Source: Ruegeria sp. TM1040 (GTDB lineage: Bacteria; Pseudomonadota; Alphaproteobacteria; Rhodobacterales; Rhodobacteraceae). Taken from it: a stretch of DNA of 64,000 nucleotides. The notes under the pieces were generated by a model. It had not been told where the DNA came from. It ran no database searches and worked only from the letters and a program-made list of their open reading frames with translations. A program made the position numbers and the translations under genes. The stretch lies in NCBI RefSeq assembly GCF_000014065.1, contig NC_008044.1:891501-955500 (forward strand). The letters run 5' to 3'. Shown here one piece after another: positions 39,817 to 42,793 of the stretch (its first letter is position 1; each line of letters begins with the position of its first letter).

Positions 39817-40377
39817 TCACTCGCCGCGCAACAGCGCCGCAACCCCGGTACGCGCGATCTTGGTCATGCCAAGCGGGCGCATCAGATCGGCAAAGGCGTC
39901 GATCTTGTCGGGCGTGCCGGTGATTTCAAAGATGAAGCTGTTGAGCGTCGTATCCACGACCTTTGCGCGGAAAATATCCGCAAGGCGCATCGCCTCGACG
40001 CGCTTTTCGCCTTCGCCGACCACTTTGACGATGGCCAGTTCACGCTCCACAAAGGGGCCGGCCACGGTGAGGTCGGTGACCTCATGTACGGGCACGATGC
40101 GACCAAGCTGCGCTTTGATCTGTTCGATCACCTGTGGCGTACCAGTGGTGACCACAGTGATGCGCGACAGATGCCCGGTGTGGTCTACTTCGGCCACGGT
40201 GAGGCTGTCGATGTTGTAACCGCGGCCCGAAAACAGCCCGATGACGCGCGCCAGCACGCCAGGTTCGTTTTCCACCAGAACGGTGATCGTATGGCGCTCC
40301 TGCGTGTCGGAGAAATTCGGGCGTAGGTTATAGGCGGAGTGCTTGGTAGCACCTTTTTTGATGTGTAGGGCAGACAT
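39817..40377 (-). CDS. ilvN: Acetolactate synthase small (regulatory) subunit
   Basis: 186 residues from ATG 40377, with AAAGGGA 5 bases upstream; the longer frame from 40431 is not needed. An ACT domain at about 25-100 (TVLVENEPGVLARVIGLFSGRGYNIDS in pieces) binds valine for feedback inhibition, and a second C-terminal domain follows. It partners IlvB in making acetolactate and acetohydroxybutyrate for branched-chain amino acids. It is separated from ilvB by 65 bases containing a hairpin. Confidence 0.94.
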   Translation of the reverse strand: MSALHIKKGATKHSAYNLRPNFSDTQERHTITVLVENEPGVLARVIGLFSGRGYNIDSLTVAEVDHTGHLSRITVVTTGTPQVIEQIKAQLGRIVPVHEVTDLTVAGPFVERELAIVKVVGEGEKRVEAMRLADIFRAKVVDTTLNSFIFEITGTPDKIDAFADLMRPLGMTKIARTGVAALLRGE

Positions 40378-40404
40378 GTCAGTCCCTTTCCTCGAAATAT
40401 CGGG

Positions 40405-40425
40405 GCAAGGCGCGATACGCCTTGC
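40405..40425 (-). other. Intercistronic hairpin between ilvB and ilvN
   Basis: Perfect 8-bp arms GCAAGGCG/CGCCTTGC with a 5-base loop, ending 27 bases before the ilvN start. It may balance expression of the subunits or protect the ilvB 3' end. Confidence 0.5.
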
Positions 40426-40442
40426 AATCAAACCTCAGATGA

Positions 40443-42194
40443 TCAGACCAGAACCGCGCCGCCGGACTGGATCACGCCCTGCGTTTCAGCCGCGCCCAAC
40501 AGCATCTCGTTGTGAGCCTTGCCCGAGGGGATCATCGGGAAGCAGTTCTCGTGCTTTTCCACCAGACAGTCAAAGATCACCGGCCCGTCATATTCGATCA
40601 TCTCCATGATCGCGTCATCCAGATCCTTGGGGTCCGAGCAGATGATGCCCTTGGCGCCAAAGGCTTCGGCGAGTTTGACAAAATCGGGCAGCGCTTCGGA
40701 CCAGCTGTGCGAGTAGCGCTCACCATGCAAGAGCTCCTGCCACTGGCGCACCATGCCAAGGCGTTCGTTGTTGAGGATGAACTGTTTCACTGGCAGGCGG
40801 TACTGGGTCGCAGTGCCCATTTCCTGCATGTTCATCAGCCAAGAGGCCTCGCCCGCGACGTTGATCACCAGCGCATCGGGATGCGCGATCTGCGCGCCGA
40901 TAGAGGCAGGCGTACCATAGCCCATGGTGCCAAGCCCCCCGGAGGTCATCCAGCGGTTGGGGTCTTCAAAGCCCAGGAACTGTGCTGCCCACATCTGGTG
41001 CTGGCCCACTTCGGTGGTGATATAGCGATCCCGACCCTTGGTCAGCGCCTCGAGACGCTCAAGCGCATATTGCGGCTTGATGGTGGTTTCGGACATCTCA
41101 TAGGTCAGGCATTTCACCGCGCGCCATTCGTCGATCTGGCCCTGCCATTTTGCCAGTGCTTCGGCGTTGGTCTTGCGCCCGCGGCTCTTCCAGACCTTGA
41201 GAATGTCCTCAAGCACATGGCCAACGTCCCCGACAATCGGGATGTCCGCCTTGATCACCTTGTTGATCGAGGAGGGGTCGATGTCGATATGGGCCTTGAT
41301 GGATTTCGGGCTGAAGGCGTCGATGCGACCGGTGATCCGGTCATCAAAGCGCGCGCCGATGTTGATCATCAGGTCGCAGTCATGCATCGCCATATTGGCC
41401 TCGTAGAGACCATGCATGCCAAGCATCCCAAGCCACTGCTTGCCCGACGCGGGATAGGCACCGAGACCCATCAGGGTCGAGGTGATCGGAAAGCCGGTGG
41501 CCTCCACCAGTTCGCGCAGAAGCTGGCTTGCGGCCGGGCCCGAGTTGATCACGCCGCCGCCGGTATAAAACACCGGGCGTTTGGCGGTCTCCATCGCGGC
41601 GACCAGCTCGGTGATTTCTTCCATGTCGCCCTTGACGACCGGCTGGTAATGCGAAGCCGAGGGTTTCTTGGGCTCATAGGTGCCGGTGGCAAACTGCACG
41701 TCCTTGGGAATGTCGATCAGCACCGGGCCAGGGCGGCCAGAGGTTGCGACATGGAACCCTTCGTGGATGGTGGAGGCGAGTTTATCGGTGTCCTTCACCA
41801 GCCAGTTGTGCTTGGTGCAGGGGCGGGTGATGCCGACGGTGTCGGCCTCCTGAAAGGCGTCAGAGCCGATCATGAAGGTCGGGACCTGCCCGGTGAGAAC
41901 CACCAGCGGGATCGAGTCCAGCAGCGCATCCGTGAGGCCGGTCACCGCGTTGGTGGCACCGGGGCCAGAGGTCACAAGCACCACGCCGGGTTTGCCGGTC
42001 GAGCGCGCATACCCTTCGGCGGCATGCACTGCGCCCTGCTCGTGACGGACCAGAATATGGCGAATGTCATTTTGCTGAAAGATTTCATCGTAAATGGGTA
42101 GGACAGCGCCTCCGGGATATCCGAATACCGTGTCCACGCCCTGCTCCTTGAGGGCTTGGACAACCATTTTTGCGCCGGTCATTTCACGTGTCAT
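40443..42194 (-). CDS. ilvB: Acetolactate synthase, large catalytic subunit
   Basis: 583 residues. ThDP enzyme: the first step of isoleucine/valine synthesis, condensing pyruvate with pyruvate or 2-oxobutyrate. The catalytic Glu is in VRHEQGAVHAAEGYARSTG; the FAD-binding middle domain follows; the C-terminal ThDP/Mg segment reads NVAGEASWLMNMQEM with NNE further on. The usual GDGS is GEAS here, a variant I associate with alphaproteobacterial enzymes (from memory). Transcription passes through the attenuator listed upstream, so expression should follow charged branched-chain tRNA supply. Confidence 0.96.
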   Translation of the reverse strand: MTREMTGAKMVVQALKEQGVDTVFGYPGGAVLPIYDEIFQQNDIRHILVRHEQGAVHAAEGYARSTGKPGVVLVTSGPGATNAVTGLTDALLDSIPLVVLTGQVPTFMIGSDAFQEADTVGITRPCTKHNWLVKDTDKLASTIHEGFHVATSGRPGPVLIDIPKDVQFATGTYEPKKPSASHYQPVVKGDMEEITELVAAMETAKRPVFYTGGGVINSGPAASQLLRELVEATGFPITSTLMGLGAYPASGKQWLGMLGMHGLYEANMAMHDCDLMINIGARFDDRITGRIDAFSPKSIKAHIDIDPSSINKVIKADIPIVGDVGHVLEDILKVWKSRGRKTNAEALAKWQGQIDEWRAVKCLTYEMSETTIKPQYALERLEALTKGRDRYITTEVGQHQMWAAQFLGFEDPNRWMTSGGLGTMGYGTPASIGAQIAHPDALVINVAGEASWLMNMQEMGTATQYRLPVKQFILNNERLGMVRQWQELLHGERYSHSWSEALPDFVKLAEAFGAKGIICSDPKDLDDAIMEMIEYDGPVIFDCLVEKHENCFPMIPSGKAHNEMLLGAAETQGVIQSGGAVLV

Positions 42195-42259: not shown

Positions 42260-42290
42260 AAAAAAGCCCCCGATTTTGAGGATCGGAGGC
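42260..42290 (-). terminator. ilvB attenuator terminator
   Basis: GCCTCCGAT, a CCTCAAA loop and ATCGGGGGC (one G-T pair), followed by TTTTTT on the minus strand. It stands 65 bases upstream of the ilvB start and 25 bases after the leader-peptide stop, the correct position for a ribosome-controlled attenuator. Confidence 0.88.
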
Positions 42291-42331
42291 GCATGGGTTC
42301 GATTATGGTCTACCGTTACCGGCCCATGCGC
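42289..42331 (-). promoter_or_regulatory. Candidate antiterminator stem of the ilvB leader
   Basis: GCGCATGGG (42323-42331, inside the last leader-peptide codons) is perfectly complementary to CCCATGCGC (42289-42297), which overlaps the 5' arm of the terminator by two bases. With the adjoining GGA/TCC pairs the stem would take over most of that arm. It can form only if the ribosome is stalled upstream on the branched-chain codons, giving read-through into ilvB (inference). Confidence 0.6.
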
Positions 42332-42363
42332 GTGTGTCCTACAATTACGACTAGCCGAGCCAT
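42316..42363 (-). CDS. ilvB leader peptide (15 residues)
   Basis: MARLVVIVGHTRMGR, then stop. Five consecutive codons (CTA GTC GTA ATT GTA: Leu-Val-Val-Ile-Val) encode branched-chain amino acids, the end products of the pathway. GGAGG stands 8 bases before the ATG (42372-42376). The Ile/Val/Leu run, the overlapping antiterminator sequence and the terminator after it make this a control peptide, not a functional protein: scarcity of charged Ile, Val or Leu tRNA stalls the ribosome and lets ilvBN be transcribed. It is far too short for ordinary gene finders. Confidence 0.88.
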   Translation of the reverse strand: MARLVVIVGHTRMGR

Positions 42364-42370
42364 CGTCGGG

Positions 42371-42392
42371 GCCTCCATCATGCATTGGAGGC
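42371..42392 (-). promoter_or_regulatory. Hairpin covering the leader-peptide ribosome-binding site
   Basis: Perfect 7-bp arms GCCTCCA and TGGAGGC with an 8-base loop; the second arm contains the leader's GGAGG. The first arm GCCTCC is also the start of the terminator stem downstream, so the Shine-Dalgarno could pair with either one. Confidence 0.55.
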
Positions 42393-42395
42393 GAC

Positions 42396-42422
42396 ATTAT
42401 GGGGCAGGGCCGGGAGGGTCAA
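42396..42422 (-). promoter_or_regulatory. Promoter of the ilvB leader
   Basis: On the minus strand TTGACC (42417-42422) and CATAAT (42396-42401) with a 15-base spacer, or TAATGT with 17. Transcription would begin around 42389, just ahead of the leader-peptide hairpin. Confidence 0.55.
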
Positions 42423-42793
42423 CCGCAAAAAGGCGGTTTTTGCGCCTGGTTTTGAATTTATCTTACGCATGGAGGTGGTATTTGGAAATTAATGACAACA
42501 TCGGGCGTTGAATTTGTAACGGGGCTATGTAACCCCGGGATGCGGAGTGCCCTGAGGGGGTAGCTTTCTAGGGCGAGACTGTGCGGGGCGCCTCCGGCGC
42601 GCAGGTTTACCCCGCGCTGCCACGCGGGGCCGGGGCGAGGCGCTGCCTCGCGCTCCGGGATATTTCAGTTAGAAGAAGGGGCGGCGGTCACTGGAGCCCT
42701 ATCGGGCGGGGCGGGCATGCAGCGCAATGGGGGGGCGGAGAGGCGTGGCTAATGCGAAGGTTTCAGAGCCTCTGGTGCGCTGGGCCCTACGGA
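42423..42793. other. Intergenic region between the ilvB promoter and the response regulator gene
   Basis: 371 bases without a supported gene. AACCGC-AAAAAG-GCGGTT (42421-42438) forms a small hairpin followed by TTTGC on the plus strand and touches the ilvB -35 box. The dispersed hairpin element, copy B, occupies 42610-42679. Confidence 0.6.
42610..42679 (+). repeat. Dispersed hairpin element, copy B
   Basis: Hairpin CCCCGCG/CGCGGGG (42610-42629), then GCGAGGC-GCT-GCCTCGC (42635-42651), then the core CCGGGATATTT (42655-42665) and TTAGAAGAAGG. The GCT loop and the core are shared with copies A and C although the stem sequence differs. Confidence 0.7.

Follow-up and report, generated by a model that had tools for sequence, protein, structure and literature searches.

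The ilvB gene of Ruegeria sp. TM1040 and the small-subunit gene that follows it are very probably controlled by ribosome-mediated transcription attenuation, which is the best explanation for a short leader region on the minus strand of the window, i.e. the whole stretch of 64 000 nucleotides that was analysed. An ilvB attenuator with a branched-chain leader peptide had been proposed in an earlier reading of this DNA (the original prediction), and the proposal is backed by conservation among relatives, the codon bias of the leader, the promoter, the stems and the terminator. From this comparative evidence we infer translation of the leader, sensing, termination and readthrough. The GGAGG site, the 15-codon ORF with L-V-V-I-V at codons 4-8, the 9-bp pairing and the T-tailed terminator are all present as described and lie on the minus strand; the parts of the locus are as follows.

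42417..42422, minus strand: -35 box TTGACC; TTGAC[C/G] with a fixed 17-nt spacer in 67/78 loci
42394..42399, minus strand: -10 box TAATGT, at 17-nt spacing; the same column reads TATGGT, TAGTGT, TATTGT or TAAGGT in relatives
42387..42392, minus strand: GCCTCC in the discriminator, the upstream arm of a proposed extra hairpin
42386, minus strand: predicted transcription start, an A, the eighth base past the -10 box, from promoter geometry and an A at or near this place in many relatives
42372..42376, minus strand: leader Shine-Dalgarno GGAGG, from sequence and AAGGAG-like sites in relatives
42316..42363, minus strand: leader peptide ORF MARLVVIVGHTRMGR, 15 codons plus TAA
42340..42354, minus strand: regulatory codons L4 V5 V6 I7 V8, i.e. 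CTA GTC GTA ATT GTA
42323..42331, minus strand: 5' arm of stem P1, GCGCATGGG, within the leader ORF; 98.9 % of cells paired over 78 sequences
42313..42322, minus strand: nested hairpin P1a, CCG-GUAA-CGG, with the stop codon in the tetraloop
42289..42297, minus strand: 3' arm of stem P1, CCCATGCGC, non-coding and nearly invariant
42266..42290, minus strand: intrinsic terminator hairpin GCCTCCGAT-N7-ATCGGGGGC, with 2 nt (42290-42289) in common with P1
42260..42265, minus strand: terminator T-run
40443..42194, minus strand: ilvB, acetolactate synthase large subunit (NF006581, 1140.1 bits against a cut-off of 974)
39817..40431, minus strand: acetolactate synthase small subunit, the next gene of the operon (NF008864, 223.6 bits against a cut-off of 119)

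The predicted distance of 65 bases between the terminator T-run and the ilvB ATG (42194) was verified from the coordinates. The small-subunit ORF as listed has a TTG start, and its match to the NF008864 family runs from residue 45 onward.

A promoter is present in front of the leader as originally predicted, and its boxes were refined to TTGACC and TAATGT on the basis of conservation in relatives, where TTGAC-N18-TANNNT was matched in 67/78 ilvB loci. This promoter is absent from the output of a generic sigma-70 consensus scan, and the call therefore rests on conservation. CATAAT, which was considered as the -10 box, was rejected, since the register kept by the relatives is TANNNT, 17 nt from TTGAC. 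From this promoter, the ilvB leader would start near 42386. The two copies of GCCTCC named in the original prediction are real, i.e. at 42392..42387 and 42290..42285, but the first of them falls in the gap from the -10 box to the predicted start site and would therefore probably be missing from the RNA. Just 5' of the -35 box of the window, an inverted repeat, CGCAAAAA-N5-TTTTTGCG, occupies 42424..42444; an exact inverted repeat of at least 6 upstream of the -35 box occurs in 1/67 loci only.

Conservation was assessed in 80 ilvB loci, which are near relatives because they are the best 80 of 594 matches, from Ruegeria, Leisingera, Phaeobacter, Roseovarius, Sulfitobacter, Gemmobacter and other genera. 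The element (stem and terminator) stands before ilvB in 77/80 and a short ORF with at least three consecutive branched-chain codons in 76/80 of these loci (best 80 of 594). The alignment has 78 rows, i.e. the window and 77 loci; left out were L020, whose contig ends inside the element, L033, where ilvB was found without the element, and L057, where it was found without a recognisable one. Three loci (L006, L062 and L072) were aligned with patterns of their own, two that the T-run finder had cut short (L029 and L052) were lengthened by hand, and L072 was excluded from folding, which therefore has n=77. Over the 78 loci the leader stop codon is TAA in 60, TGA in 18 and TAG in 0, and the leader C-terminus is RMGR, followed directly by the stop, in 72.

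Several of these loci deserve separate mention. In L033, from a Nereida genome, a TTGACG promoter is kept about 70 bases upstream of ilvB while leader and terminator are gone, i.e. a natural deletion; in Nereida ignava (L078), leader and terminator are kept. The leader of L059, MDCFVDDVGKKRMGR, has lost the branched-chain codon run and kept both stems and the terminator, and is perhaps a decayed sensor. One genome (G440) has two ilvB-like copies, each with an attenuator of its own (L143 and L157).

A covariance model trained on ilvB loci, with the window in its training set (R1), matched 165/198 whole genomes of the family, most of the match sites not having been opened. It gave the window 99.2 bits, a score that is inflated, as for other ilvB loci, because the model was trained on such loci, while the next match in the same genome had 18.3 bits; the other six matches in that genome reach at most 18.3 bits, the first of them being the opposite strand of the same place. 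A second model (R2), trained without the window or any ilvB locus, is the fairer one and matches the window leader with 68.9 bits (E=1.2e-14), in a test that is not wholly independent, since the training loci of R2 had been found with R1.

A charge sensor needs slow, easily starved codons. In codons 2-11 of the 78 leaders, compared with ilvB of the same loci (first 1700 bases; for the window, the whole gene), CTA makes up 45/110 Leu codons versus 59/3538 in ilvB, i.e. an about 25-fold enrichment, GTA makes up 113/203 Val codons versus 142/3328 (13-fold), and ATT makes up 38/84 Ile codons versus 382/2768. In the 41 ORFs of the window, CTA accounts for 0.17 % of codons.

Alignment of relatives had been put forward in the original prediction as the check to make, and it found leader codons and paired stems conserved: over the three helices P1, P1a and terminator, 96.7 % of cells in the 78-row alignment are paired, and 9/18 pairs show two-sided changes. 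Among the shuffles, 0/500 scored as high, and slid controls gave at most four pairs with two-sided changes; as the scored structure was drawn from the window, it is by itself favoured over slid versions on cells paired. The 9 bp of P1 are almost invariant on the non-coding side too, so that P1 speaks for conservation rather than covariation. P1a is paired in 94.0 % of cells, and its three pairs are changed on both sides in six, one and one sequences, the two single-sequence changes both coming from L078 alone; compensatory examples are UCG/CGA in L028, GCG/CGC in L044 and GAUC/GAUC in L078. Its tetraloop, which holds the stop codon, is mostly GUAA or GUGA, i.e. of the GNRA type. RNAalifold on the same alignment predicted P1 and the terminator but not P1a, and the case for P1a therefore rests on the count of two-sided changes. 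The terminator has two-sided changes at 4/6 core pairs. P1 and terminator overlap by exactly 2 nt in 77/78 loci, i.e. by the two base pairs adjoining the T-run, and the outermost shared terminator pair is only G-U in 10/78 loci. The predicted placing of the stop codon in the tetraloop of a hairpin nested in a 9-bp stem is newly noted here for the ilvB element.

These parts suggest how the leader would work. With charged branched-chain tRNAs, the ribosome would reach the stop codon and cover the 5' arm of P1, whereupon the terminator would close and a short RNA would be released. With uncharged Leu, Val or Ile tRNAs, the ribosome would stall at codons 4-7 and P1/P1a would form; P1 would then abut and compete for the terminator base near the T-run, so that RNA polymerase would more often enter ilvB. 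Judging from its geometry, P1 lying flush with the terminator base may also make it harder for that base to close within RNA polymerase.

Of all the steps in this model, exclusion is the least secure. When ribosome footprints were masked and the T-run was left out (n=77), the basal terminator pairs formed with a probability of 0.95 with the ribosome at the stop codon versus 0.62-0.65 with the A-site at codons 4-7, and the P1 core with 0.00 versus 0.87-0.91; for the window alone, the basal terminator pairs had 1.00 at the stop versus 0.14-0.78 in the stalled states. In these stalled states (A-site at codons 4-7) the probability of the terminator base stays above 0.5 in 52-58/77 loci. The shift thus goes in the direction that the model requires but is modest at equilibrium, and since the terminator base is mostly kept, P1 would be a partial antiterminator at best. 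The terminator base has a probability of 0.92 when the A-site is at codon 8, i.e. termination is predicted. The attenuator had originally been called complete; all its parts are there, but with an overlap of P1 and terminator of only 2 nt the exclusion at equilibrium is partial. Folding with the T-run included gave a larger contrast, in which P1 looks like a stronger antiterminator, and was not relied on, since at the moment of decision the T-run is still within RNA polymerase.

No protector (1:2) stem was found in the folding: in naked RNA the 5' arm of P1 is paired upstream with a mean probability of 0.12, and of 0.00 in the window. Naked RNA has a basal terminator probability of 0.62 (n=77), like the stalled state. 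Taken together, these two results suggest that an untranslated leader would act as a stalled one, unlike in the trp model.

The original prediction had also held that a hairpin hides the Shine-Dalgarno of the leader and that the Shine-Dalgarno could swap to the GCCTCC arm of the terminator. Switching between the upstream and the terminator GCCTCC arms would add translational gating, and both helices can indeed be drawn in the window, with 7 bp and 6 bp; for the window, pairing of the 5' region with the terminator arm is also slightly stronger than in shuffles (z -1.5). Relatives, however, mostly do not share this layer. The 7-bp helix is present in 1/78 loci, i.e. in the window only, while the other 77 have 2-5 bp, and Shine-Dalgarno:terminator pairing of at least 6 bp occurs in 5/78. 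Pairing of the 5' region with the terminator arm, examined as an alternative antiterminator, is not enriched over shuffles (mean z +0.34, n=78), z being below -2 in 2/78, and the upstream arm lies 5' of the predicted start site. We consider this switch extremely unlikely.

The conserved leader end could be read in another way, i.e. RMGR plus stop codon as an arrest peptide whose nascent-chain contact halts the ribosome when it reaches the stop codon, so that hungry codons would not be the stalling sites. The frequency of this end in the leaders and its retention in L059 despite the loss of the branched-chain run fit such a peptide. The same conservation is explained at the RNA level, however, since the RMGR codons make up P1 and P1a, and the non-coding 3' arm of P1 is nearly invariant too. 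In L072, where the stem is altered, the peptide ends in ARKR, and transporter-type leaders (see below) end otherwise, e.g. in RLDR, RMDR or RRAR. Together with the enrichment of rare codons among Leu and Val codons, in a codon count that covered the branched-chain residues, this makes an arrest peptide highly improbable. Much the same low probability applies to a constitutive terminator that yields an independent small RNA, with a leader ORF that has no sensing role. Terminator and P1 core can largely coexist in equilibrium folding, and Atu_C8 (see below) is filed in Rfam as an sRNA; a block of rare branched-chain codons that stands directly before the branched-chain biosynthesis operon and is kept in 76 of the best 80 of 594 loci nonetheless argues against it.

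The design may not be restricted to ilvB. When R1 was run on 385 genomes of the class, 25 matched. In the five that belong to the family of the window, every match is at ilvB. In 11 genomes of other families the match stands in front of the gene for an MFS protein of roughly 400 aa, and in G107 it coincides with an Atu_C8 locus, again before that transporter gene. The last eight matched weakly (at most 27.1 bits), at places where neither ilvB nor the transporter was found. A Pfam scan of seven of the 11 transporter proteins assigned all to MFS_1, and in an NCBIfam scan of six of the 11, five exceeded the Bcr/CflA cut-off (TIGR00710) and one fell slightly below it; the remaining ones were placed by tblastn similarity. 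The transporter leaders are mostly Val-rich (L111 is not), with the stop codon mostly at the hairpin tip. Such an attenuator-like element was seen before a Bcr/CflA-type MFS gene at L102-L112, L139-L142, L148, L149, L156 and L158, in several alphaproteobacterial families.

The neighbouring genes of R1 loci were identified by tblastn comparison with ilvB and with two transporter proteins. Above 32 bits, 17/34 checked loci are at ilvB (window included), 17/34 at the transporter and 0 elsewhere, shares that are not representative because low scores or double matches had guided the choice of 14/165 genomes of the family and most matches in the family were never opened. Below 32 bits, two checked loci are at the transporter (three with L120, which is Atu_C8 locus L082 again) and 11 have neither gene, several of these resembling bare terminators; matches below 19 bits in the genome of the window lie outside this count. 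The search was blind to the gene, and yet every strong non-ilvB match that was opened falls at a single gene family; this is the strongest indication that these matches are real. Four transporter-type loci belong to the window's own family (L148, L149, L156 and L158), and one genome (G500) has one element of each kind (L144 and L158). Conversely, R2, built from 19 transporter loci that had themselves been found with R1, matches the ilvB leaders of G000, G022, G189, G286 and G364 with 68.9-91.8 bits. The genome of the window has two transporter homologues, both without the element.

On its own, the transporter group (19 sequences) shows weak covariation: its cells paired were reached by 57/500 shuffles, its pairs with two-sided changes by 136/500 and its covariation score by 19/500. 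In the middle of P1, two pairs are lost in 7/19 and 9/19 of these sequences, respectively, and since the 3' arm CATGCGC is often unchanged where the mid-pairing of the 5' arm is lost, this arm may have a second constraint. A further match, L159 (1501-1598), looks decayed, with Val codons kept and CAG at the place of the stop codon, and neither ilvB nor the transporter was detected there. Upstream of attenuator-less transporter homologues (L187, L190, L191, L193 and L194), TTTGCAAA-like motifs were noticed by eye, which are possibly sites of a protein regulator.

At ilvB of other Alphaproteobacteria (L123-L138), no nearby branched-chain leader ORF was found. Within 300 bases of ilvB (278 bases available in L135), an ORF with at least four consecutive branched-chain codons occurs in 0/16 genomes, 14 of which had been chosen for their transporter-side or Atu_C8 matches; the two such ORFs in the 16 genomes lie more than 370 bases from ilvB. 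In these loci, ilvB often follows the apparent 3' end of miaA and has a TTGAC promoter, joined in some loci by a terminator-like hairpin.

Atu_C8 (Rfam RF02502) bears on the same question. At 19.5 bits, the window stays below the gathering score of 50 and is therefore not a member of that family; in an RF02502 scan of four relatives, only L054 matched at E up to 0.1, with 29.8 bits. The six Atu_C8 loci above the cut-off that were fetched (L082 and L085-L089; match at 1501-1622), from two genera of one order, all stand directly before a Bcr/CflA-type MFS gene (6/6). At least L082 and L087 contain a Val-rich leader ORF whose stop codon lies at the tip of a hairpin, the ORF of L082 reading MMQVSVVVGRRMGKAA up to the stop, with an uncertain exact start. 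Like the window element, Atu_C8 has P1 arms (GCGCAUGGG / CCCAUGCGC), a Val-rich ORF running through RMG(R/K), a nested stop-codon hairpin and a terminator; unlike it, it lacks the overlap of P1 and terminator, and the gene downstream is a transporter gene, not ilv. Filed as a Rhizobiales sRNA, Atu_C8 looks, from these features, like the attenuated leader RNA of a transporter. A passage on Agrobacterium reports that 32 sRNAs of an earlier study are apparently parts of long 5' UTRs, and does not name Atu_C8 (PMC3738593).

We would put at about an even chance the broader proposal that one attenuator family, in which a hairpin with the stop codon in its loop is nested in a terminator-abutting stem, serves two unrelated targets, which in Rhodobacteraceae would be acetolactate synthase and in many other Alphaproteobacteria an efflux-type transporter of the Bcr/CflA kind, with Atu_C8 as an attenuated transporter leader. 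If this is true, the ribosome would be the sensor in both, tying an export pump to valyl-tRNA charging or to stalled translation generally, and the element would work by a base-stealing or abutting stem with no protector hairpin.

The main text of a paper on sRNAs of Ruegeria pomeroyi contains no mention of ilv, acetolactate or attenuat (PMC4809877), and a paper on the small proteome of S. meliloti none of ilvI, ilvB or leuA (PMC10117765). Among the open-access papers listed, titles and abstract openings describe neither the ilvB element of Rhodobacteraceae nor the leader of the transporter, which is not proof that they are unpublished.

The analysis yields an account, testable and covering the whole family, of the way in which branched-chain amino-acid synthesis may be tuned in marine and soil Rhodobacteraceae. 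It also offers a possible function for an Rfam sRNA and links what may be the same sensor to an efflux-type transporter, which raises the question of what starvation or stalling signal such a pump would answer. The stop codon in a tetraloop and the 2-nt overlap would together make a compact attenuator design.

The attenuators of E. coli ilvB, ilvGMEDA and leu likewise have a branched-chain leader peptide, the rare Leu codon CUA and a terminator before the operon, and their models involve 1:2, 2:3 and 3:4 pairings with broad overlap. In contrast, no protector stem was found in the window element, and its overlap is 2 nt. Within the same order, uORFC-8-2, the cysS leader of Rhodobacterales, has likewise been proposed as a ribosome-mediated attenuator, but in the passages describing it, it has Cys codons, cysS as its target and a different fold (PMC8632094); the ilvB and ilvD motifs mentioned in that paper come from Leptospira and Veillonella. 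Attenuation of ilvBN in Caulobacter is described in a passage citing Tarleton et al. 1994 (PMC4117421). By that description, the Caulobacter crescentus locus, of the same class, is alike in having a leader CDS with tandem Ile and Val codons, a Rho-independent terminator and an ilvBN/ilvIH operon (PMC4117421). The predicted Rhodobacteraceae element is a known kind of switch, as in Caulobacter ilvBN, but its conserved design is its own and its putative second target was not expected.
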